64,000 nt of DNA. Origin: Halococcus salsus (lineage in GTDB: Archaea; Halobacteriota; Halobacteria; Halobacteriales; Halococcaceae). Below are positions 12,681 to 62,614 of the stretch, piece by piece. The position numbers and the translations under genes were made by a program. The notes beneath the pieces were generated by a model. It ran no database searches. It had not been told where the DNA came from and worked only from the letters and a program-made list of their open reading frames with translations. The stretch is from positions 919,216 through 983,215 of the forward strand of contig NZ_JAAAJC010000001.1 of assembly GCF_009900715.1 (NCBI RefSeq), written 5' to 3'. How positions within the stretch are numbered: position 1 is the first letter of the stretch; each line of letters starts with the position of its first letter.

Positions 12681-13775
12681 TTAGATGCGTTTGAAGACGC
12701 CCTTCACCAGCGTGAGCGCGCCCTGGTCCCAGGCGACCCGGTGGTCCAACCCCGTGCCGTCGGTCTCGGGATCGTCGTAGTTGTCGAGGTACCACTCGTA
12801 GGTCTCGACGAGCGCCTCCTTGTTGGAGTAGCGGGGTTCCCAACCGAGCGATTTCAGCTTCTCGACGGAGACGTAGGAGTCCTCGTGGGCGGTCTCGTAG
12901 ACCCAGGGGTAGAGCGGCGAGAGGTTGAGCTTGTCGAGCGTACGGAGCGCGAACACCGTGAGCGGGGTCGGGGTGCCCACGGTGCGCTTGCCGGTGCCCG
13001 CGTAGTCGATCGGGGCCTGGAAGTCCTCCTTCATCGTGCCGAACTCCTCGGCACCCACGTTGAACGTGGTGTTGACCTCGTCCTCGTCCTTCGCGAACAT
13101 GAACTCCATCGCGCGCACGAGGTCGTAGACGTGCATCAGCTGGTACTTGTTGTTGCCCCAGCCGACCATCGGGACGTTCGCGCCGGACTCGATCCAGTCG
13201 AACAGCACTTGAAAGACGCCGAGGCGCTTCGGGCCGATGAACGTCTTCGGTCGGAGGATCGGAACGCACATGCCCTGTCGACGGAAGTCGCGACAGATCT
13301 GCTCGGCCTCGATCTTGGCCTCGCCGTAGGGACCAACGCCGTCGAGCGGGGATTCTTCGGTTATCGGGTGGTGGTCGTGGGTGCCGTAGACCGCGGTCGA
13401 GGAGATGTAGACCACACGGTTGACGCCCGCGTCCTTGGCGGCCCAGAGGACGTTACGAGTACCGTTGATAGTGGTGTCGCGGATGCGCTCGTCGTCCCAG
13501 AGCGGGAGCGCCGCGGCGGTGTGGACGACCGAGTCCGCGCCCGACTCCTCGAGCGCGGCGGCGATGGACTCCTCGTCGCGGACGTCGCCCTCGATGAAGT
13601 CGACGCCATCGATCTCGTCCTCGGGTTTGAAGGGTTTGAGGTCGAGCGCCACGACGTCCCAGCCGCGTTCCTTGAAGTATTCGCAGGTGTGAAGCCCGAG
13701 GAATCCGGTGCCGCCGGTGACGAGCAGCGTTCCGGGCTCGGTGAGCCGTTCGTCCGCTTGCTGTTGTGCCTGCAT
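12681..13775 (-). CDS. NAD-dependent sugar epimerase/dehydratase (extended SDR)
   Basis: This 364-residue extended short-chain dehydrogenase has the Rossmann motif TGGTGFLG (residues 20-27), a conserved VVHTAAALPLW segment, and the catalytic triad in SSTAVYG and the YGEAKIEAE helix (Tyr-x3-Lys). Such enzymes act on nucleotide sugars or on prenyl-linked sugars. The start at 13775 follows a minus-strand GATAGTTCAAA promoter element about 28 bases upstream. It diverges from the decaprenyl-phosphate phosphoribosyltransferase-like gene, so a keto-sugar epimerase in the same pentose pathway is a reasonable inference; a plain NDP-sugar epimerase is the alternative. Confidence 0.85.
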   Translation of the reverse strand: MQAQQQADERLTEPGTLLVTGGTGFLGLHTCEYFKERGWDVVALDLKPFKPEDEIDGVDFIEGDVRDEESIAAALEESGADSVVHTAAALPLWDDERIRDTTINGTRNVLWAAKDAGVNRVVYISSTAVYGTHDHHPITEESPLDGVGPYGEAKIEAEQICRDFRRQGMCVPILRPKTFIGPKRLGVFQVLFDWIESGANVPMVGWGNNKYQLMHVYDLVRAMEFMFAKDEDEVNTTFNVGAEEFGTMKEDFQAPIDYAGTGKRTVGTPTPLTVFALRTLDKLNLSPLYPWVYETAHEDSYVSVEKLKSLGWEPRYSNKEALVETYEWYLDNYDDPETDGTGLDHRVAWDQGALTLVKGVFKRI

Positions 13776-13910
13776 TGCCCCGTGATTCACGATGGGGTTT
13801 GAACTATCTACCGATACGGTCGCGTTTCGACGCCGGAGCTTGGCGATAAAACGTGCTGAAACGTGTCCCGGACGCCGGGAACGAAGCGGAACGGTCCGCA
13901 CCGATCGGCC

Positions 13911-13918
13911 GTTTTATG
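13911..13918 (+). promoter_or_regulatory. TATA-like box of the UbiA/DPPR synthase operon
   Basis: GTTTTATG lies about 30 bases before the ATG at 13944 and fits a leaderless start for the three-gene operon that follows. Confidence 0.5.
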
Positions 13919-13943
13919 GGACCCCATCCCGCAGAAGGGTGCA

Positions 13944-14864
13944 ATGGGCGAGGCGCAGACACAGCGGAGCAGCATCGTCGACACGGCCGTCGGTCTCGCC
14001 TACGAGATCCGCCCGTGGCAGTGGTACAAACAGTCGGTCCTCCTCATCGGGATCGTCTTCTCGCGGGAGCTGTTCAACCCCGCGGCGTGGAGCCAGGTCA
14101 TCCTCGGCGTGCTGGCCTTCTGTGCGATCGCCGGTGCGACCTACATCTTCAACGACATCAGCGACGTCGAGGCCGACCGCAAACACCCCACGAAGCGCAA
14201 CCGGCCGATCGCCTCCGGCCAGGTGAGCGTCGCGACCGCGGGCGCGTTCGCGGTCGCGCTGCTTGTCGGCGGGTTCGTGTTGTCGTACGCCCTCGGACGG
14301 CTGTTCCTTATCGTCGTCCTGACGTACATTGCACAGAACGTGCTCTACTCGCTCTACCTCAAGGACGTCGTGCTGGTCGACGTGATGCTGATCGCGATCG
14401 GGTTCGTGCTCCGGGCGGTGGCGGGCGTGGTCGCCATCGGCGTGGCGCTCAGCCCCTGGCTCGTGGTCTGTACGTTCCTCGCCGCGCTCCTCCTCGCGAT
14501 CGGCAAGCGCCGCAACGAGTTCGAGGCCAGCGACCTGCCCGGCGAGACCCGGGCGACCCTCGAGGAGTACACCCCCGAGACCCTCGACCAGCTCCTCGGG
14601 ATCGTGACCTCCACCCTCCTGATATCCTACTCCATCTACACCTTCACCGGCGCGAAGCTCGCGATGATGCTCACGCTCCCGTTCGCCTTCTTCGGGGTCT
14701 TCCGGTATCACCACCTGGTTCACACCACCGACTCCGGCGTCTCGCCGGAGGTACTCCTGATCGACCGTCAGTTCATCCTCAACCTCGCGCTCTGGGGGCT
14801 GATCGCGGTGATAGTGCTCTACGGCCGCCCCCGGGCCTGGCTGATCGGGGCCGGGGTGGTCTGA
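13944..14864 (+). CDS. Decaprenyl-phosphate phosphoribosyltransferase-like UbiA protein
   Basis: The 306-residue membrane enzyme is a UbiA-superfamily prenyltransferase with about nine helices. The first aspartate motif reads NDISDVEADRKHPTKR (Asn70, Asp71, Asp74, Asp78), and the second region YSLYLKDVVLVDVMLIA is followed by LLAIGKRRNEFE. These stretches are those of the mycobacterial Rv3806c group, which joins phosphoribosyl pyrophosphate to a polyprenyl phosphate to start the arabinose donor pathway. Quinone- and archaeol-synthesising UbiA proteins have different motifs. It begins an operon with a PHP protein (1-base overlap) and a flippase-like protein. Reaction specificity in this organism is inferred from the family. 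Confidence 0.85.
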   Translation: MGEAQTQRSSIVDTAVGLAYEIRPWQWYKQSVLLIGIVFSRELFNPAAWSQVILGVLAFCAIAGATYIFNDISDVEADRKHPTKRNRPIASGQVSVATAGAFAVALLVGGFVLSYALGRLFLIVVLTYIAQNVLYSLYLKDVVLVDVMLIAIGFVLRAVAGVVAIGVALSPWLVVCTFLAALLLAIGKRRNEFEASDLPGETRATLEEYTPETLDQLLGIVTSTLLISYSIYTFTGAKLAMMLTLPFAFFGVFRYHHLVHTTDSGVSPEVLLIDRQFILNLALWGLIAVIVLYGRPRAWLIGAGVV

Positions 14865-15511
14865 TGAAGCGCTACGACCTCCAGGTTCACACCGACGCCT
14901 CGCCGTGTTCGGCGACCCCGCCCGAGGAAGTGGCTGCGGCCGCGGCGGACGCGGGTCTCGACGGGATCGTGGTGACCGACCACGACACCCTCGCGAACGT
15001 CGACCGGGTTCGTGCGGCGGCTCCCGAGGGGTTGGACGTGATTCCGGGCGTCGAGGTCACCACGACACAGGGGCACCTCTTGGGGATCGACGTCGCCGAA
15101 GCGCCACCGCAGACGGAGCCGCTGACAGTCGTGGACCGGATCCACGACCAGGGCGGGCTCGCGGTGCTCTCGCACCCGTTCGATTCGCTCCGGCAGTACT
15201 ACGACCGCGACCTCGACGACCTCGCGGCGGCCGTCGACGGGGTCGAGGTCGAGAACTCGCGGTGTGTTCGGGAATCGTTCAACCGGCAGGCGCGCGCGTA
15301 CGCGACCCACCACGGACTGGCGATGACGGGCGGGAGCGACGGCCACTTCCCACGGGAGGTCGGGCGGGCGTACACGGCGGTCGAGGGGTCGCTCGTGGAC
15401 GCGATCCGCGAGGGCTCGACCACGCCGCGTGGGCGCGGTCGGTACGCATCGGGCCACGTTCTCACGAAGGTCCAGCAGGCGCGACGGCTGATCGGGGGCG
15501 CGACGCCGTGA
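14864..15511 (+). CDS. PHP-domain metal-dependent phosphoesterase
   Basis: A 215-residue polymerase-and-histidinol-phosphatase (PHP) domain protein. Metal ligands are visible in LQVHTDASPCS (residues 6-16), VVTDHDT, IPGVEVTT, VLSHPFD and GGSDGHF, so the trinuclear site appears complete. The reaction is likely removal of a phosphate group. Its ATG overlaps the stop of the phosphoribosyltransferase gene by one base. The family contains no known enzyme for this step, but the position suggests it could remove the 5-phosphate from a polyprenyl-phosphoribose intermediate. A related PHP protein occurs at 33776-34483. Confidence 0.87.
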   Translation: MKRYDLQVHTDASPCSATPPEEVAAAAADAGLDGIVVTDHDTLANVDRVRAAAPEGLDVIPGVEVTTTQGHLLGIDVAEAPPQTEPLTVVDRIHDQGGLAVLSHPFDSLRQYYDRDLDDLAAAVDGVEVENSRCVRESFNRQARAYATHHGLAMTGGSDGHFPREVGRAYTAVEGSLVDAIREGSTTPRGRGRYASGHVLTKVQQARRLIGGATP

Positions 15512-34924: not shown

Positions 34925-35656
34925 ATGGTTCGCGCCGCCATCCAGTTGTACACCCTTCGCGACGTCGAGCAGCCGCTCCCGGAACTCCTCGAACAGGTCC
35001 GAGAGGCCGGTTTCGCGGGCGTGGAGTTCGCCGGTCGGGTCACGGACGCCGACGGCGACCAGGTCCGGGAGACGCTCGACGAAACGGGGCTCGAATCCGT
35101 CGCCGCGCACGTCGACATCGAACGGCTCGAAGCCGACCCCGACGAGACCATCGAGTTCTACCGCTCGCTCGGGTGTGAGCACCTCGTCGTTCCGTGGCTC
35201 GGCCCGGACGCGTTCGAGACGGTCGAGGCCATCGAGACGACCGCCGACCGGCTCCAGTCGGTCGCCGAGACGGTCGCGGACCACGGGATGGCGTTCTCCT
35301 ATCACAACCACGACCACGAGTTCGTGGAAGTCGACGGTGAGACGGCCTTCGACCGGCTCGCGGCCGCCACCACCGACCCCGTCGGGTTCGAGCTCGACTG
35401 TGGCTGGGTCACCGTTGGCGGTGTCGACCCCGTCTCGCTGCTCGATCGCCTCGACGACCGCGTGTCGCTCGTCCACATCTCGGACGCCGACGAGACGGGG
35501 TCGCCGACCGAGGTGGGCGAGGGCGTCCTCGACGTTACCGGCTCTCTGGAGGCCGCCACCGACCACGGGATAGAGTGGGCGATCTACGAGCACGACGACC
35601 CCGACGACGCCATGGCGTCGGCCAGCCACGGTGCCGAGGTCCTGGGTCGGTTCTGA
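34925..35656 (+). CDS. Sugar phosphate isomerase/epimerase (xylose isomerase-like TIM barrel)
   Basis: The 243-residue protein is an AP endonuclease 2/xylose isomerase-like TIM barrel. Motifs include IQLYTLRDVEQPLPELLEQV at the N-terminus, LAVH-type strand VAAHVDIE, SYHNHDHEFVEVDG and LDCGWVTVGG, then LVHISDAD. These place it with inosose/hydroxypyruvate isomerase-like enzymes. The substrate is unknown; the next gene, an SMP-30-like lactonase, suggests sugar acid metabolism. Confidence 0.85.
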   Translation: MVRAAIQLYTLRDVEQPLPELLEQVREAGFAGVEFAGRVTDADGDQVRETLDETGLESVAAHVDIERLEADPDETIEFYRSLGCEHLVVPWLGPDAFETVEAIETTADRLQSVAETVADHGMAFSYHNHDHEFVEVDGETAFDRLAAATTDPVGFELDCGWVTVGGVDPVSLLDRLDDRVSLVHISDADETGSPTEVGEGVLDVTGSLEAATDHGIEWAIYEHDDPDDAMASASHGAEVLGRF

Positions 35657-39395: not shown

Positions 39396-39417
39396 TCGGT
39401 AAGATTCGTTAGTGGAT

Positions 39418-40335
39418 ATGACATCCACTAACCCCTTCCGCGAGTCGGAAAATTCTCAGACCGTCGACGTCACGCGACGTCGGTTCCTAGCAGCTGGTGC
39501 GGCCGGGGTGGCGGGCGTCGGCGCGCTTGGCAGTCTCGGGAGTGCCGCGGCCGCTTCGGAGAAGCACCTGCTCACCATCCAAGGTACTGGCTCATCCACT
39601 ACCTACTCGTTCACTGTCGGCGGCGATCTCGAGCAGGTCACGGCGGAAGGCGCGACGATCCAGGACAACGATAACATCGTGAGGCAGAGCGCCCACGGTG
39701 AGGTCAGCAACGGGAAGGACGCCTACACGTTCACCGGGCCGCTCTACTCGTTCGACTTCGACCAGTCAGGTGAAATCGACGTGGACCTCGATGGCGAACC
39801 TGCCTATGTCGGGGACCGACCCGATCACACGCTCCTCATCGAAGGGACGGGTCCATCCACGACGTACTCGTTTGGAGCCGATCAAATCATCGGAAAGAGC
39901 GACGCGTACGGGGCGAGTAAGAACTCCAGGGACCGGTTTAACATCTATGGGGCAGAGGGAGAGGTCAGCATCGGCAAGGACGCCTATACGTTCAATGGAG
40001 AGCTACAGGCATTCGAGTTCGAAGGGGGTGCTATCGAGGTTACCATCGACGGAAAATCTGCTCACGTCGGCCAACTCCCGGACCAGGCGATGATTCTCTT
40101 CTCCGAACGAGAATACTGGGATGCGGAGTACGAGGTTACAGTCAGCGGCTCGATTCGAGAAGTGCTCTACGAAGGGCAAAGCGGCCAGAGACAGTCTATT
40201 AGTGAGAGGACGATCTCCGGTTGGGTCTGGGGAGGGGCAGCCGACAAGTTCACCTACGATGGGGAAATCGAGTCGTTCACTACTAACGACCCCGACGAGC
40301 TCGAGGCTTACTCCAACTACGAGAAGCTCTACTGA
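39418..40335 (+). CDS. Tat-exported beta-repeat protein (three repeats), tandem paralog 1
   Basis: The 305-residue protein has a Tat signal, VTRRRFLAAGAAGVAGVG, ending in GSAAAA, and three units of about 80 residues. Unit 1 opens LLTIQGTGSSTTYSF and contains GEVSNGKDAYTFTGPLYSFDF; unit 2 repeats LLIEGTGPSTTYSF and GEVSIGKDAYTFNGEL; unit 3 is divergent and ends near DKFTYDGEIESFT. The same repeat, with the form YTVSVSGELEKS ... VDSYEFSGEVESFAF, makes up the N-terminal part of the GH26 protein at 50772. No catalytic domain is present. It is likely a folded, exported beta protein that binds sugar or other surface partners. Confidence 0.75.
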   Translation: MTSTNPFRESENSQTVDVTRRRFLAAGAAGVAGVGALGSLGSAAAASEKHLLTIQGTGSSTTYSFTVGGDLEQVTAEGATIQDNDNIVRQSAHGEVSNGKDAYTFTGPLYSFDFDQSGEIDVDLDGEPAYVGDRPDHTLLIEGTGPSTTYSFGADQIIGKSDAYGASKNSRDRFNIYGAEGEVSIGKDAYTFNGELQAFEFEGGAIEVTIDGKSAHVGQLPDQAMILFSEREYWDAEYEVTVSGSIREVLYEGQSGQRQSISERTISGWVWGGAADKFTYDGEIESFTTNDPDELEAYSNYEKLY

Positions 40336-40381
40336 GCTAGTTTCGGGGCTCGCATCGCTTCGGTGACTCACACATTTTGGC

Positions 40382-40492
40382 CTACTCAACCTGTATCCGA
40401 TTGTAGCAGTGGGTACAGGGGATCTCGTTCGGGTGGTCTTCGGCGTCGAACTCCACCCACACCCCACAGACGTCGCAGGCGACGGCTGCCAT
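40382..40492 (-). CDS. Two-CxxC zinc microprotein, 36 aa
   Basis: Hand translation of the minus strand gives a 36-residue protein starting MAAVACDVCGVWVEFDAEDH and ending HCYNRIQVE. It has CDVC (Cys6, Cys9) and CTHC (Cys26, Cys29) knuckles with 16 residues between, a minimal zinc ribbon. It lies between the two tandem secreted paralogs and points the opposite way, so it may be independent of them. Small zinc proteins of this design occur widely in haloarchaea; function unknown. Confidence 0.55.
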   Translation of the reverse strand: MAAVACDVCGVWVEFDAEDHPNEIPCTHCYNRIQVE

Positions 40493-40602
40493 GCCACCCT
40501 CTGACGTGCTGTTCCTCATTTGAGCGTTCCGCGGCTTGCTCTCCGAGAACACCGTTCGTCAGTGGTAATACCGTTCCCTCGGCCGGCAGCTGGTAGGCCA
40601 GA

Positions 40603-40652
40603 TTCTCACACAAAGCTTATCACATGTCACCCACACAAGACTTATTACAAAA
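40603..40652 (+). promoter_or_regulatory. 50-base promoter/operator block, copy 2
   Basis: Exactly identical to copy 1 at 39346-39395, again about 22 bases upstream of the start codon. The sequence just after it diverges until the signal-peptide codons, which again match. The duplicate points to shared control of both paralogs. Confidence 0.6.
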
Positions 40653-40674
40653 CCACTAAGATTCCTTACTGAAT

Positions 40675-41583
40675 ATGAGATCCACTAACCCCTTCCGCAA
40701 GTCGGAAAATTCACAGACCGTCGATGTCACCCGACGTCGATTCTTAGCAACTGGTGCGGCCGGGGTGGCGGGCATCGGAGCGCTCGGAAGTCTTGGGAGT
40801 GCTGCAGCGGCTCCGGACCAGCATCTGCTCACTATCGAAGGCACTGGTTACTCAACCAACTACTCGTTCACTGTCGGTGGCGATCTCGAGCAGGTCACGG
40901 CGGAAGGCGCGACGATCCAGGATAACGACAACGTCGTCATGCAGAGCGCCCACGGCGAGGTCAGCAACGGGAAAGACGCCTACACGTTCACTGGCCCGCT
41001 CTACTCGTTCAACTTCGATGAATCGAACGACATCAGTGTGAAGCTCGACGGTGAATCAGCCTACGTTGGAAATCGGGCCGACCACACGCTCCTCATCGAA
41101 GGGACCGGTCCGTCCACGACGTATTCGTTCTCAGCCTATGGACTGATCCAGCAGAGCGAGGCCTACGGAGCGAGCAGAAACTCCAGAGACCGGACCAATT
41201 CCTACGGCGGGGAAGGGGAAGTTAGCATCGGCAAGGATGCCTATACGTACAGCGGAGATCTGGTAGCCTTCGAATTCGATCAAGCTGGAGCTATCCGAGC
41301 TACCATCGATGGGAAAGCCGCTCACGTCGGACAGCGTCCCGATTATGCCCTTACCATCGTCGCTAATGATGGGTACGTCGAATACGAGGTCGAAATCGAT
41401 GGCAATATTCGAGAGGTGACAAGTTCCGATGGGAGTCCAGATAGCGTCGACGGAAACACGTTCTCCGGTACTCTTCAAGGAGTTGGGCTCGACCGGTTCA
41501 CCTACGATGGCGAGATCGAATCATTCACGCACTCCGGAAGAGGTGACTTCAGCGCTTACAGGAACTACCAGCAAATCAAATAA
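40675..41583 (+). CDS. Tat-exported beta-repeat protein (three repeats), tandem paralog 2
   Basis: The 302-residue protein begins MRSTNPFRKSENSQTVDVTR and has the same Tat signal (VTRRRFLATGAAG) and three-unit layout as the preceding paralog. Unit 1 reads LLTIEGTGYSTNYSF and GKDAYTFTGPLYSFNF; unit 2 LLIEGTGPSTTYSF; unit 3 LTIVANDGYVEYEVEIDG and LDRFTYDGEIESFT. Paralog 1 and 2 are near-identical at the signal and first unit and drift toward the C-terminus. A gene duplication that included the promoter block is the simple explanation. Role as for paralog 1. Confidence 0.75.
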   Translation: MRSTNPFRKSENSQTVDVTRRRFLATGAAGVAGIGALGSLGSAAAAPDQHLLTIEGTGYSTNYSFTVGGDLEQVTAEGATIQDNDNVVMQSAHGEVSNGKDAYTFTGPLYSFNFDESNDISVKLDGESAYVGNRADHTLLIEGTGPSTTYSFSAYGLIQQSEAYGASRNSRDRTNSYGGEGEVSIGKDAYTYSGDLVAFEFDQAGAIRATIDGKAAHVGQRPDYALTIVANDGYVEYEVEIDGNIREVTSSDGSPDSVDGNTFSGTLQGVGLDRFTYDGEIESFTHSGRGDFSAYRNYQQIK

Positions 41584-59140: not shown

Positions 59141-59149
59141 TATAAACTC
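59141..59149 (+). promoter_or_regulatory. TATA box of the ebo-like operon
   Basis: TATAAACTC is centred about 27 bases before the ATG at 59171, a textbook leaderless arrangement. It likely drives the three overlapping genes that follow. Confidence 0.65.
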
Positions 59150-59170
59150 CGTCCGAACGGATCGCCGAAC

Positions 59171-59974
59171 ATGGAGATCATCGACCCGCACATGCACATG
59201 GTCTCGCGCTCGGCCGACGACTACCAGCGCGCGCGGATGGCCGGCGTCGAGTGCTGCATCGAACCCGCCTTCTGGAGCGGCACCGACAAGGAGTACGCGG
59301 GTTCGTTCTTCGATTACTTCGAGCAGATCATCGACTTCGAAACCCAGCGCGCGGAGCGCGCGGGTGGGATGAGTCACTATGTGACGATCGGTCTCGAACC
59401 CAAGGAGGCCAACTACCGCGAGATGGCCGAGGAAGTTTTGGAGGGGATCCCCGAGTACCTCGACCGCGAGAACGTCGTCGGGGTCGGCGAGATCGGCTTC
59501 GACCAGCAGACGGAGGATGAAGAATGGGCGCTCCGCGAGCAGTTGCGGATGGCCGACGAACGCGAACTCCCGGTCATCATCCACACCCCACACACCGACA
59601 AACCCTCCGGCACCGAGCGGATCGTGGAGGTCATCGAGGACGAGGGCGTGACCCAGGAGCGGATCGTGATCGACCACAACACGGCCGAGACCATCGAGAC
59701 CTCCCTGACGACCGACTGCTACGTCGGCTTCACGCTCTATCCCGGGAAGATCGAGGCCGAGGCCGCGATCGACCTCCTCGAGGAGTACGGCACCGACAAG
59801 ATGCTCTTCAACAGCGCCGCCGACTGGGACCCATCGGACCCCCTCGCGGTCCCCAAAGCGCGGGACAAGATGCTGGACCGTGGCTGGGATCGCGAGGACG
59901 TCAAGAAGGTCGTCTTCGACAACCCCTACGAGTTCTTCGACCAGTCGCCGAACTTCGACTACGAGCGCCCATGA
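59171..59974 (+). CDS. TatD-family metal-dependent hydrolase, EboB-like
   Basis: The 267-residue amidohydrolase-fold protein has metal-binding motifs IDPHMHMVSR (residues 4-13), VGVGEIGFDQQ, IIHTPH, IDHN and FNSAADWDP. The particular sequence DPHMHMVSRSADDYQ ... CIEPAFWSGTDK ... LEPKEANYREM is that of the EboB group of TatD-like proteins encoded in bacterial ebo clusters, not of ordinary TatD DNases. Its substrate has never been fixed for the group as far as I know. It starts an operon with 4-base overlap to the next gene. Confidence 0.85.
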   Translation: MEIIDPHMHMVSRSADDYQRARMAGVECCIEPAFWSGTDKEYAGSFFDYFEQIIDFETQRAERAGGMSHYVTIGLEPKEANYREMAEEVLEGIPEYLDRENVVGVGEIGFDQQTEDEEWALREQLRMADERELPVIIHTPHTDKPSGTERIVEVIEDEGVTQERIVIDHNTAETIETSLTTDCYVGFTLYPGKIEAEAAIDLLEEYGTDKMLFNSAADWDPSDPLAVPKARDKMLDRGWDREDVKKVVFDNPYEFFDQSPNFDYERP

Positions 59975-60801
59975 AGTTCGGCTTCTCGGCCAACGCGTTC
60001 CGCGAGTATACACCTGTGGAGACCATCGAAATCGTCGCCGACGCGGGCTACGACGGGATCGAACTCCTGTTCGACCGGCCCCACCTCTACCCGCCCGACA
60101 CGGACGAGGAAACCGTCGAGCGGGTCCAGCGGACCCTCGCCGACAACGACCTCGCGATCAGCAACTGCAACGCGTTCATGCTGACCGCGATCGAGGGCTT
60201 TCACCACCCCTCCTACATCGAGCCGGACACCGACTACCGGCAGCGGCGGATCGACTACACGAAGGGCGCGCTCCGGACCGCGGCGGCGCTCGACCACGAC
60301 TACATCTCGATCGAGCCCGGCGGTCCGGTCCCCGAGGAGAAGTCCCGCGAGTGGGCCCTAGAGACGTTCGTCGAGAGCCTCGAAGACGTCCTCCCCGTCG
60401 CGGAGGAGGTCGGTGTGGACCTCCACGTCGAACCCGAACCCGACCTCCTGATCGAGACGGCCGACGAGTACCTCGAGTTCGTCGACCGGATCGATCATTC
60501 ACAGGTCCGCTGTAACTTCGACGCCGGCCACCTCTTCAGCGTGGGCGAGGACCCCGTCGCGGCGTACGAGGCGCTCGCCGACTACGTCGACCACGTCCAC
60601 CTCGACGACATTCCCGAGGACCGCCGGCACGAACACACCCAACTCGGCGAGGGCGCGATGGACATCGACGGCTTCCTCGCGGCGCTCGACGACGCGGGGT
60701 ACGAGGAGTTCGTGACGGTCGAACTCTACCCCTACGAGGAGACGGCAGCCGAGACGGTCGAGGACGCGATGGCCTACCTCGAAACCCACGGGTGGGCCTG
60801 A
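59971..60801 (+). CDS. Sugar phosphate isomerase/epimerase (TIM barrel) in ebo-like operon
   Basis: A 276-residue AP endonuclease 2/xylose isomerase-like barrel. Motifs: FGFSANAFREYTPVETIEIV, GYDGIELLFDRPHLYPP, the metal-site VDLHVEPEPDLLIET, CNFDAGHLFSVGEDP and VDHVHLDDIPEDRRHEH. These occur in proteins that isomerise or epimerise sugars or inositols. Its ATG overlaps the EboB-like stop by 4 bases. In bacterial ebo clusters a longer TIM-barrel protein (EboE) holds a comparable place; here two barrels flank the prenyltransferase. The next gene overlaps by 10 bases. Confidence 0.85.
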   Translation: MKFGFSANAFREYTPVETIEIVADAGYDGIELLFDRPHLYPPDTDEETVERVQRTLADNDLAISNCNAFMLTAIEGFHHPSYIEPDTDYRQRRIDYTKGALRTAAALDHDYISIEPGGPVPEEKSREWALETFVESLEDVLPVAEEVGVDLHVEPEPDLLIETADEYLEFVDRIDHSQVRCNFDAGHLFSVGEDPVAAYEALADYVDHVHLDDIPEDRRHEHTQLGEGAMDIDGFLAALDDAGYEEFVTVELYPYEETAAETVEDAMAYLETHGWA

Positions 60802-61715
60802 GACGGGTGCCGCGCGGCGACCTCCGGGACCGGTTCGAGGCCTACGCGAGCCTAGTCCGATTGCCGAACCTCTTCAGCGCACCGCCCGACGTGGTGCTCG
60901 GCGCGGCGCTGGTCGCCGCGAGCGGTGGTTCGGTGTCGATCCCCGCGCTCGCCGGCCTCACGCTCGCCTCCGTTCTCCTCTACGCGGGCGGCACGACGCT
61001 CAACGACTACTTCGATGCTCCAGTCGATGCACGGGAGCGCCCCGAGCGACCGATCCCAAGTGGTCGGGTCGCGCGCTCGCGGGCGGGCGCGCTCGGTGGC
61101 GGTCTGCTGACGGCCGGGGTCGTGGTCGGTTTCCTCGCCGCCGAGCTTCAGGGTGGCGTCGTCGCGGCGGCGCTCGCCGTCGTCGTGCTCGCCTACGACG
61201 GCTGGCTGAAGGGGACCGGTATCGGATTCCTCGCGATGGGGGCCGCACGCGGGTTCGACGTCGCGCTCGGATTCGCGGCGGGCGGCTTTGGGGTCCCTAT
61301 CTGGACTGTATTCGTCCCCCTCGTCGTCGTCGGCTACATCGCGCTCGTCACGCGGATGGCGGCGAACGAGGCCACCACCACCGAGCGAGGCGTCGTGGCG
61401 GGTGCGGCGGGCGGGGTCGTCCTCGGCGGCGTCGCGGTCGTCGCGCTGGTCGGGTTCGTTCGACCGTCGCTCGTCGAGATCCTCCTCGCGGTCGCGCTCG
61501 TCGTGGGGTTCTTCGGATGGACCGGGCAGGCGATCGGGCGGGCCTACGCGACACCCCGGCCGGACACCGTCGGGCCGGCGGTCGGGACCTGCGTGCTCGC
61601 GCTCGTCGTCCTCGACGCGGCGTTCGCGGCGGTTGCGGGGCTCCCGTGGGCGCTCGCCGCGGTCGCGTTTCTGATCCCCGCTCTCGGGTTCTCGCGGCTG
61701 TTCGACGTCTCGTGA
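60792..61715 (+). CDS. UbiA-family prenyltransferase, EboC-like
   Basis: The 307-residue membrane protein has about nine helices. Motifs LVRLPNLFSAPPDVVLGAAL, GGTTLNDYFDAPVDARERPE and RPIPSGRVARS are those of the EboC subgroup of UbiA proteins. The second aspartate motif of typical UbiA enzymes is weaker here (VVLAYDGWLKGTGIGFLAMG). It probably joins or transfers a prenyl group to a soluble precursor. The GTG at 60792 overlaps the previous gene; a second GTG at 60807 may be the real start. It differs clearly from the DPPR-type protein at 13944. Confidence 0.83.
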   Translation: MGLRRVPRGDLRDRFEAYASLVRLPNLFSAPPDVVLGAALVAASGGSVSIPALAGLTLASVLLYAGGTTLNDYFDAPVDARERPERPIPSGRVARSRAGALGGGLLTAGVVVGFLAAELQGGVVAAALAVVVLAYDGWLKGTGIGFLAMGAARGFDVALGFAAGGFGVPIWTVFVPLVVVGYIALVTRMAANEATTTERGVVAGAAGGVVLGGVAVVALVGFVRPSLVEILLAVALVVGFFGWTGQAIGRAYATPRPDTVGPAVGTCVLALVVLDAAFAAVAGLPWALAAVAFLIPALGFSRLFDVS

Positions 61716-61765
61716 CCCGGTGCTGATCTCGGAAAGCGTTTGGGCGCGGCGACCGTTTTTCGACC

Positions 61766-62614
61766 ATGGTCGACCTCGCGTTCTCGACGAACGCCTACAC
61801 CCGTCACCCGCTCCCCGAAGCGATCGACCGCATCGCCGGCCACGGCTACGACGGCGTCGAACTCCTCGCCGACACGCCGCACGCCTTCTTCCCCGAGTTC
61901 GCCAATTCGGACCGCGAGGCCACGCTCGCGGCGCTCGACGATACTGAACTACCCGTATCGAGCGTCAACGCCAACACCGCCGCGGGCTACTACGACGACG
62001 CGCCGCCGTCCTCGTTCTTCGACCCGAGCATCGTGACCGACGACGACGAGGACCGCGAGTGGCGGATCGAGTACACGAAACGCGCCATCGAGTTCGCCGA
62101 CGCCGTCGACGCGCCCGCCGTCAGCATCGGCACCGGCCGCCCGCTCGCCAACAACCCGCCCGAGCAGGCCCACGAGTACCTCCGCGACTCGCTCCACACG
62201 ATCCTCGACCACGCCGAGGAACACGACGTCCGGGTCGGGATCGAGTACGAACCCGAACTCCTCGTCGAGTGTACGGACGAGGTGCTCGCGCTGATCGGCG
62301 ACGTGGGTCGGGACTCGCTCGGCGTCAACCTCGACCTGGGCCACGCGGCGGTCTACGGCGAGGATCCGGCCGAGGCGATCCGCCAGTGTGCGGGTCACAT
62401 CACGGGGATCCACCTCGAAGACATCGCGGGCGGGCGACGCGGCAAGCACTACCATCTGGTTCCGGGCGACGGCGACCTCGACTTCCGGGCGATGTTCGAC
62501 GCGCTCGACGACGTCGACTACGACGGGTTCGCGACGCTCGAACTCTACACCTACACCGCGAACCCCGACGAGGCCGCCAGTCGGGCTGCCGACGCGCTCG
62601 CCGAGTTCCGATAG
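61766..62614 (+). CDS. Sugar phosphate isomerase/epimerase (TIM barrel), second in ebo-like region
   Basis: A 282-residue barrel paralogous to the one at 59971: LAFSTNAYTRHPLPEAIDRI, GYDGVELLADTPHAFFPE, RVGIEYEPELLVECTDE, VNLDLGHAAVYGEDP and THLED-like ITGIHLEDIAGGRRGKHYH. The metal-binding Glu, Asp and His positions look preserved. It lies 50 bases after the EboC-like gene and likely belongs to the same pathway. The two barrels share length and start but differ throughout, so they are likely to work on different substrates or in sequence. Confidence 0.83.
   Translation: MVDLAFSTNAYTRHPLPEAIDRIAGHGYDGVELLADTPHAFFPEFANSDREATLAALDDTELPVSSVNANTAAGYYDDAPPSSFFDPSIVTDDDEDREWRIEYTKRAIEFADAVDAPAVSIGTGRPLANNPPEQAHEYLRDSLHTILDHAEEHDVRVGIEYEPELLVECTDEVLALIGDVGRDSLGVNLDLGHAAVYGEDPAEAIRQCAGHITGIHLEDIAGGRRGKHYHLVPGDGDLDFRAMFDALDDVDYDGFATLELYTYTANPDEAASRAADALAEFR

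Follow-up and report, generated by a model that had tools for sequence, protein, structure and literature searches.

A candidate inositol-type variant of the ebo gene cluster in Halococcus salsus and other Halobacteria

Within a 64,000-nucleotide stretch of the Halococcus salsus genome (the window), four adjacent forward-strand genes resemble part of the ebo operon (eboA-F) of bacteria and plastids. An eboB-like gene (59171-59974, 267 amino acids, ATG start) encodes an EboB-type metal-dependent hydrolase of the TatD/amidohydrolase superfamily (Pfam TatD_DNase, 71 bits). It is followed by E1 (59971-60801, 276 amino acids), a xylose-isomerase-like TIM barrel with the epimerase/dehydratase fold (Pfam AP_endonuc_2, 163 bits), by an eboC-like gene (60792-61715, 307 amino acids; Pfam UbiA) for a UbiA-superfamily membrane prenyltransferase of the EboC/SCO3242 group, and by E2 (61766-62614, 282 amino acids), a second xylose-isomerase-like TIM barrel (AP_endonuc_2, 151 bits). 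An earlier note on this DNA had placed these four genes together, the first three with overlapping starts behind a TATA box, and that description holds: the box (TATAAA, 59141-59146, forward strand) lies 25 bp upstream of the eboB-like ATG, the eboB-like gene and E1 overlap by ATGA, and E1 and the eboC-like gene overlap by 10 bp if GTG 60792 is taken as the start. The eboC-like start codon is uncertain: an alternative GTG at 60807 would remove the overlap. A gap of 50 bp separates the eboC-like gene from E2. The short distance from TATA box to start codon suggests that the operon transcript is leaderless or nearly leaderless; the promoter of the nearest relative (L034) is identical, and the promoter is not conserved in other Halococcus. 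All four genes are under purifying selection when compared with other Halococcus (ratio of nonsynonymous to synonymous substitution rates, dN/dS, 0.08-0.39).

Two of the four proteins carry the resemblance to ebo. The hydrolase has the signatures SRxxxDY, EPxFWxG, KEA, HTPHxxKxGT and an NSAADW-type end, unlike TatD DNases, in an alignment that took in proteins from Bacteroidota, Planctomycetota, Paenibacillus, Actinoplanes and Rokubacteria. Models of TatD DNases score it far under their cut-off, and its nearest solved relative, the uncharacterised AF_1765, is not a TatD DNase. For the prenyltransferase, the EboC model (NF035940) was the best of all models at 179.9 bits (NCBI curated cut-off 250), followed by SCO3242 at 160 bits (cut-off 260); the models for archaeol (geranylgeranylglyceryl phosphate, GGGP) synthase and UbiA gave 63 and 33 bits. 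The protein is nearer to EboC/SCO3242 than to the prenyltransferases of quinone, heme or archaeol synthesis and contains NDxxDxxxDxxERPxRPxPSG, of which NDxxDxxxD is invariant; its second Asp motif is a single Glu (E193), as in bacterial EboC. The proposal that the two proteins are EboB- and EboC-like is thus borne out by the EboB signatures and by the best-matching model, but the EboC score stays below the curated cut-off.

A single-sequence query of genome contigs with the prenyltransferase gave no match, and an alignment query recovered relatives, the best 80 of which were haloarchaeal orthologues or bacterial relatives, most of them within ebo clusters. Haloarchaeal profiles run against genuine bacterial ebo clusters scored 243-304 bits for EboB, 141-212 for EboC and mostly 290-430 for EboF. 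In an EboC tree with outgroups, the UbiA sequences serving as outgroup were of low quality (two probably in wrong frames, with a branch length of 10), and rooting was not used. The structure model (predicted local distance difference test score, pLDDT, 90) had digeranylgeranylglyceryl phosphate (DGGGP) synthase as its top fold match. The window encodes a second UbiA-superfamily protein in the region 12681-15511. Its gene (13944-14864) shares bases with a PHP-domain gene, and the other strand there carries a gene for an NAD-dependent epimerase; at 26.7 bits to the profile of the ebo-like UbiA, the protein is no more than a distant relative.

Two further genes stand together outside the window, on the same contig as the operon and 966 kb away from it: ino1 and an eboF-type gene (G000:C1:11873-14433, equal to L091:7871-10437). 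Ino1 belongs to the inositol-3-phosphate synthase family (PF07994/PF01658), with the active-site stretches GxDxKTGET and DNKTA/DWKTA, and aligns over its full length with the solved Archaeoglobus fulgidus inositol-phosphate synthase (303 bits), an alignment that takes in the lysine-rich stretches conserved at the active site. Its partner (G000:C1:13096-14433; L091:9091-10437) encodes a type I phosphodiesterase in which, as in its relatives, we found the EboF signatures SEY, DHQ and IHxKPGxDPxE. Because Ser-Glu-Tyr is invariant in haloarchaeal and bacterial EboF-type proteins where the nucleotide pyrophosphatase/phosphodiesterase superfamily has Ser-Asp-His metal ligands, the EboF-type metal site may differ from that of nucleotide pyrophosphatases. 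The earlier statement that no eboF-like gene is adjacent is correct for the locus, but the genome (95% complete) does have one, beside ino1. In a close relative (G255) the pair is likewise apart from the operon, on another contig. The H. salsus pair is flanked on one side by a repeat-rich protein and on the other by a fumarylacetoacetate (FAA)-hydrolase gene, beyond which lie genes resembling those of the bacterioruberin pathway (crtB, crtI, lbtA and cruF-like).

At 37 haloarchaeal loci we extracted the orthologue with at most 20 kb of surrounding DNA, called genes with a codon-model gene picker and compared their order. The order B-E1-C-E2 was present at nearly all 37 loci and in most was preceded by a divergent pair of ino1 and a type I phosphodiesterase gene, a layout kept across many genera. 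Annotations of Halocatena and Halobaculum plasmids show the same divergent F-Ino1 / B-E1-C-E2 arrangement, and that of Natronococcus has the same six genes in a different order. Conserved linkage in related genomes, on which the earlier proposal depended, therefore extends across Halobacteria. Among 292 Halobacteria genomes, EboC had strong matches in 37, EboB and EboF-type proteins in the same 37, and Ino1 in those 37 plus G208 (EboC versus Ino1, Fisher p = 3e-46, uncorrected for relatedness); in two of the 37 (G020 and G264) the EboF match lies elsewhere in the genome and is a diverged copy at 38%. The operon-bearing set is patchily distributed over at least 16 genera and 5 families. In all 14 operon-bearing genomes examined, a PF07994 search found exactly one inositol synthase, the operon-type Ino1.

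Some loci depart from this pattern. Genome G209 has two operon copies (L035 and L041), and the UbiA match of one contains an in-frame TAG. At five loci (L056, L058, L061, L070 and L071) a 69-residue, four-cysteine zinc-ribbon protein is encoded between ino1 and eboB, probably of the family of Haloferax volcanii HVO_B0212, which binds one zinc (PMC11241148); loci with such a protein in this position belong to Halorubrum and Haloferax. H. volcanii itself presumably carries the operon, to judge by published work on HVO_B0212 and HVO_B0213 and by the loci of Haloferax (L104). On a plasmid of Halomarina sp. BND7 (L198:7989-10454), a cluster-type Ino1 adjoins glycosyltransferase genes with no operon on the record, hinting at recruitment to another inositol use.

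According to the earlier note, EboE seemed to have been replaced by two shorter barrels, and this agrees with what we found. EboE, a 379-residue TIM barrel, is absent from operon-bearing haloarchaea, in which its model gave weak matches only, of 19-28 bits and mostly to E1 and E2 (27 and 24 bits, respectively, in the window), against a cut-off of 250 and 390-485 bits in controls. The idea that E1 and E2 are two halves of EboE is not supported, because the EboE model matches both weakly over the same central region and because clusters of Streptomyces, Rokubacteria and Actinoplanes hold EboE and a short barrel together. E2 is an ancient paralogue of E1. Both retain a Glu-Asp-His-Glu set, which we take to be typical of the fold; residues E154/E156, D184, H187, H210 and E251 are invariant in E1. 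The E1 structure model (pLDDT 94) has a ketose 3-epimerase-like fold, with many ketose 3-epimerases at similar scores and no single substrate indicated. E1 has orthologues in Paenibacillus and Planctomycetota, which fall on the E1 side of the tree, and Paenibacillus E2 groups with haloarchaeal E2 (support 100/97), so the two-barrel architecture is probably older than the haloarchaeal operon. A further xylose-isomerase-like TIM barrel is encoded in the window outside the operon (34925-35656).

We did not find EboA in any of 13 operon-bearing haloarchaea, while positive-control genomes gave matches, and an EboD/AroB-type cyclase had no match in the haloarchaeal loci, which have Ino1 instead. The haloarchaeal set lacks three features of an ebo operon sensu stricto: EboA, EboE and a linked EboD. 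The locus had previously been read as a reduced ebo operon, a view that we dropped on finding ino1 and eboF in the same genome: an EboF-type gene is present in every operon-bearing genome, and the cyclase is there as inositol-3-phosphate synthase. By gene content, the set is an inositol-type ebo variant, with Ino1 in place of EboD, two ancient short barrels in place of EboE, and no EboA.

Cyclase type differs between clusters in bacteria too. Across a survey of about 80 related loci, Bacteroidota clusters read EboA-B-C-D-E-F. Ino1 is found in ebo-type clusters of Actinoplanes, Rokubacteria, a planctomycete, Kofleriaceae and Streptomyces plasmids; the Streptomyces order is Ino1, SCO3242 prenyltransferase, sugar phosphate isomerase, EboA, TatD, EboE, phosphodiesterase, its SCO3242, EboA and EboE already being named singly by NCBI. 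In Paenibacillus phytorum (L152), E2-B-E1-C-F is followed by an inosose-dehydratase-like (IolE-like) gene and an AroB/EboD-type cyclase, and neither EboA nor EboE was found in the genome. On these arrangements, the ring-forming enzyme is probably the exchangeable part of ebo clusters. Published ebo clusters come from bacteria and plastids and include eboA and eboG variants; in the literature searched, with subscription papers outside the search, we found no description of archaeal or Ino1-type clusters.

We think it somewhat likely, at a probability of roughly 60%, that these genes constitute an archaeal, inositol-type version of the ebo pathway, encoded at two loci in H. salsus and running from Ino1 through EboF, E1/E2 and EboB to EboC. 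Ino1 would cyclise glucose 6-phosphate to inositol 3-phosphate, from which the EboF-type phosphodiesterase would remove or exchange the phosphate by dephosphorylation or trans-esterification. E1 and E2, with their metal-dependent epimerase/dehydratase fold, and the EboB hydrolase would then remodel the ring, and EboC would attach an isoprenoid chain from a prenyl diphosphate at the membrane, yielding a membrane-anchored cyclitol. The product is most likely a prenylated inositol-derived cyclitol. DGGGP synthase, to which the EboC fold is nearest, prenylates a hydroxyl of a phosphorylated polyol, which counts in favour of the proposed pathway. An isoprenoid-cyclitol product was already proposed in 2016, in a paper that makes no mention of inositol (PMC5133447), and the inositol route extends that proposal. 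The cyclitol lipid would probably serve an exported function, perhaps together with the exported beta-propeller dehydrogenases that are often encoded alongside. What the sequences show is which families the proteins belong to, that their genes are linked and co-occur, that Ino1 is the one inositol synthase of the operon-bearing genomes checked, and that clusters differ in cyclase type; each chemical step, the sequence of steps, the product and the exported role are inferred.

A gene for a large glucose/sorbosone-dehydrogenase (GSDH) beta-propeller lies within the fetched stretch at 19 of the 37 loci, compared with about 0.8 expected by chance (relatedness uncorrected); it can be as near as 5 bp or even sit within the operon. 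Operon-bearing genomes have a mean of 4.1 GSDH genes, against 1.35 in 20 genomes that lack the operon. In the Halococcus members inspected, the GSDH-domain protein is exported by twin-arginine translocation (Tat) and fused to a cupredoxin. A ScyD/ScyE protein is encoded directly upstream of two Streptomyces clusters, and ScyE is an exported protein required with ebo for scytonemin (PMC6282210). A broader proposal, which we advance tentatively and hold to be doubtful, is that ebo clusters, whether bacterial, plastid or archaeal, all lead to a single class of membrane-anchored cyclitol, the ring being formed by different enzymes, either of EboD type or an inositol synthase. The lipid would then assist, or carry electrons for, exported oxidoreductases with a six-bladed beta-propeller, among them ScyE and the glucose/sorbosone dehydrogenases.

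Several observations weigh against the inositol-type pathway. The UbiA protein scores under both of NCBI's curated cut-offs, for EboC and for SCO3242. The same type of Ino1 also occurs without the operon, in G208 and beside the glycosyltransferases of the Halomarina plasmid, so other uses are possible. No inositol dehydrogenase is consistently linked, though an IolE-type dehydration would need prior oxidation, and no beta-propeller gene is adjacent to either H. salsus locus, the nearest being about 45 kb away.

Other explanations account for parts of the evidence. The set might make or modify inositol-headgroup membrane lipids of the archaetidylinositol type, with Ino1 feeding ordinary polar lipids and the remaining genes linked by chance or in minor roles. 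Haloarchaeal annotators have linked HVO_B0213, which matches the A. fulgidus inositol synthase at 43%, with such lipids (PMC8305020), and the operon-bearing genomes tested have no inositol synthase other than Ino1. We nevertheless regard this as unlikely: near-perfect co-occurrence with EboB, EboC and EboF-type genes, and the position of Ino1 within Streptomyces, Rokubacteria and Actinoplanes ebo clusters, tie the enzyme to ebo, and we noticed no archaetidyltransferase in the operon. Archaetidylinositol synthesis, moreover, requires no UbiA enzyme beyond archaeol synthesis.

Less likely still is a catabolic island for sugars or cyclitols, in which a sugar derivative, once oxidised extracellularly by the linked dehydrogenases of pyrroloquinoline quinone (PQQ) type, would be broken down by barrels, phosphodiesterase and hydrolase. 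Genes for Gfo/Idh/MocA, ThuA, mannonate dehydratase and ATP-binding cassette (ABC) transporters adjoin some loci, and the dehydrogenases stand beside 19 of 37. These catabolic neighbours differ from locus to locus, however, while the six genes stay together; Ino1 and the prenyltransferase are biosynthetic; and in Nostoc, each of five ebo gene deletions tested stops scytonemin production, not a catabolic trait (PMC6282210). The linked exported beta-propellers at haloarchaeal and Streptomyces loci would also suit the export role envisaged by Klicki et al., in which Ebo proteins form a complex or carrier moving a small molecule across the membrane. This appears improbable for haloarchaea, which lack EboA, the complex organiser of that proposal; all components are enzyme-like with conserved candidate active-site residues, and export could be an indirect effect of the lipid product. 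That the locus is an ordinary TatD DNase and a quinone- or archaeol-type UbiA enzyme beside two sugar isomerases, with no joint function, an outcome that the earlier note had itself set against its proposal and that the generic Pfam names would allow, is already contradicted by the model scores (EboC 180 versus 63 and 33 bits), EboB signatures, kept gene order and identical presence or absence in 37 of 292 genomes.

A cluster known so far from bacteria and algae extends to salt-loving archaea, in which genetics is available, and there it is always accompanied by an inositol-making enzyme, a hint at its starting material. The question of the ebo substrate dates from 2016, and sedoheptulose 7-phosphate has been the guess for EboD. 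As the haloarchaeal cyclase is a well-understood enzyme, the variant gives a direct prediction, that inositol phosphate enters the ebo pathway. The haloarchaeal inositol synthase, now annotated for inositol headgroup lipids, may have to be assigned a different role. Were the beta-propeller link causal, there would be a common reason for the need for ebo in scytonemin production and for ebo travelling with exported dehydrogenases. As a separate observation, the window also contains two tandem paralogous secreted-protein genes (39412-41583) with near-identical Tat signal starts.

Set beside known systems, the eboC-like protein shares Asp-rich motif 1 with DGGGP synthase (PDB 7bpu, 6m31), its closest fold, but is only 18% identical to it and has the second Asp motif cut to one Glu (E193). 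With the ebo operon eboA-F of Bacteroidota, Cyanobacteria and eustigmatophyte plastids (PMC5133447, PMC6282210), the haloarchaeal set shares EboB-, EboC- and EboF-type signatures, the presence of a cyclase that forms a cyclitol, and one or more xylose-isomerase-like TIM barrels; it differs in lacking EboA, EboD and EboE, in its Ino1 cyclase and two short barrels, in its archaeal host and in its split or divergent layout. The Streptomyces SCO3242-type cluster, like that of haloarchaea, has Ino1 for EboD, EboB-, EboC- and EboF-like genes, one extra short barrel and, at some loci, an exported beta-propeller neighbour. Unlike haloarchaea, it has EboA and a true EboE, and its type of short barrel, represented in the tree by Actinoplanes and Rokubacteria members, falls on another branch than E1 and E2. 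Closest in architecture is the cluster of Paenibacillus phytorum, which shares orthologues of E1 and E2, EboB, EboF, an EboC that scores above the cut-off (269 bits) and the absence of EboA and EboE. In place of the haloarchaeal Ino1 it has a sugar phosphate cyclase of AroB/EboD type together with an inosose-dehydratase-like gene.

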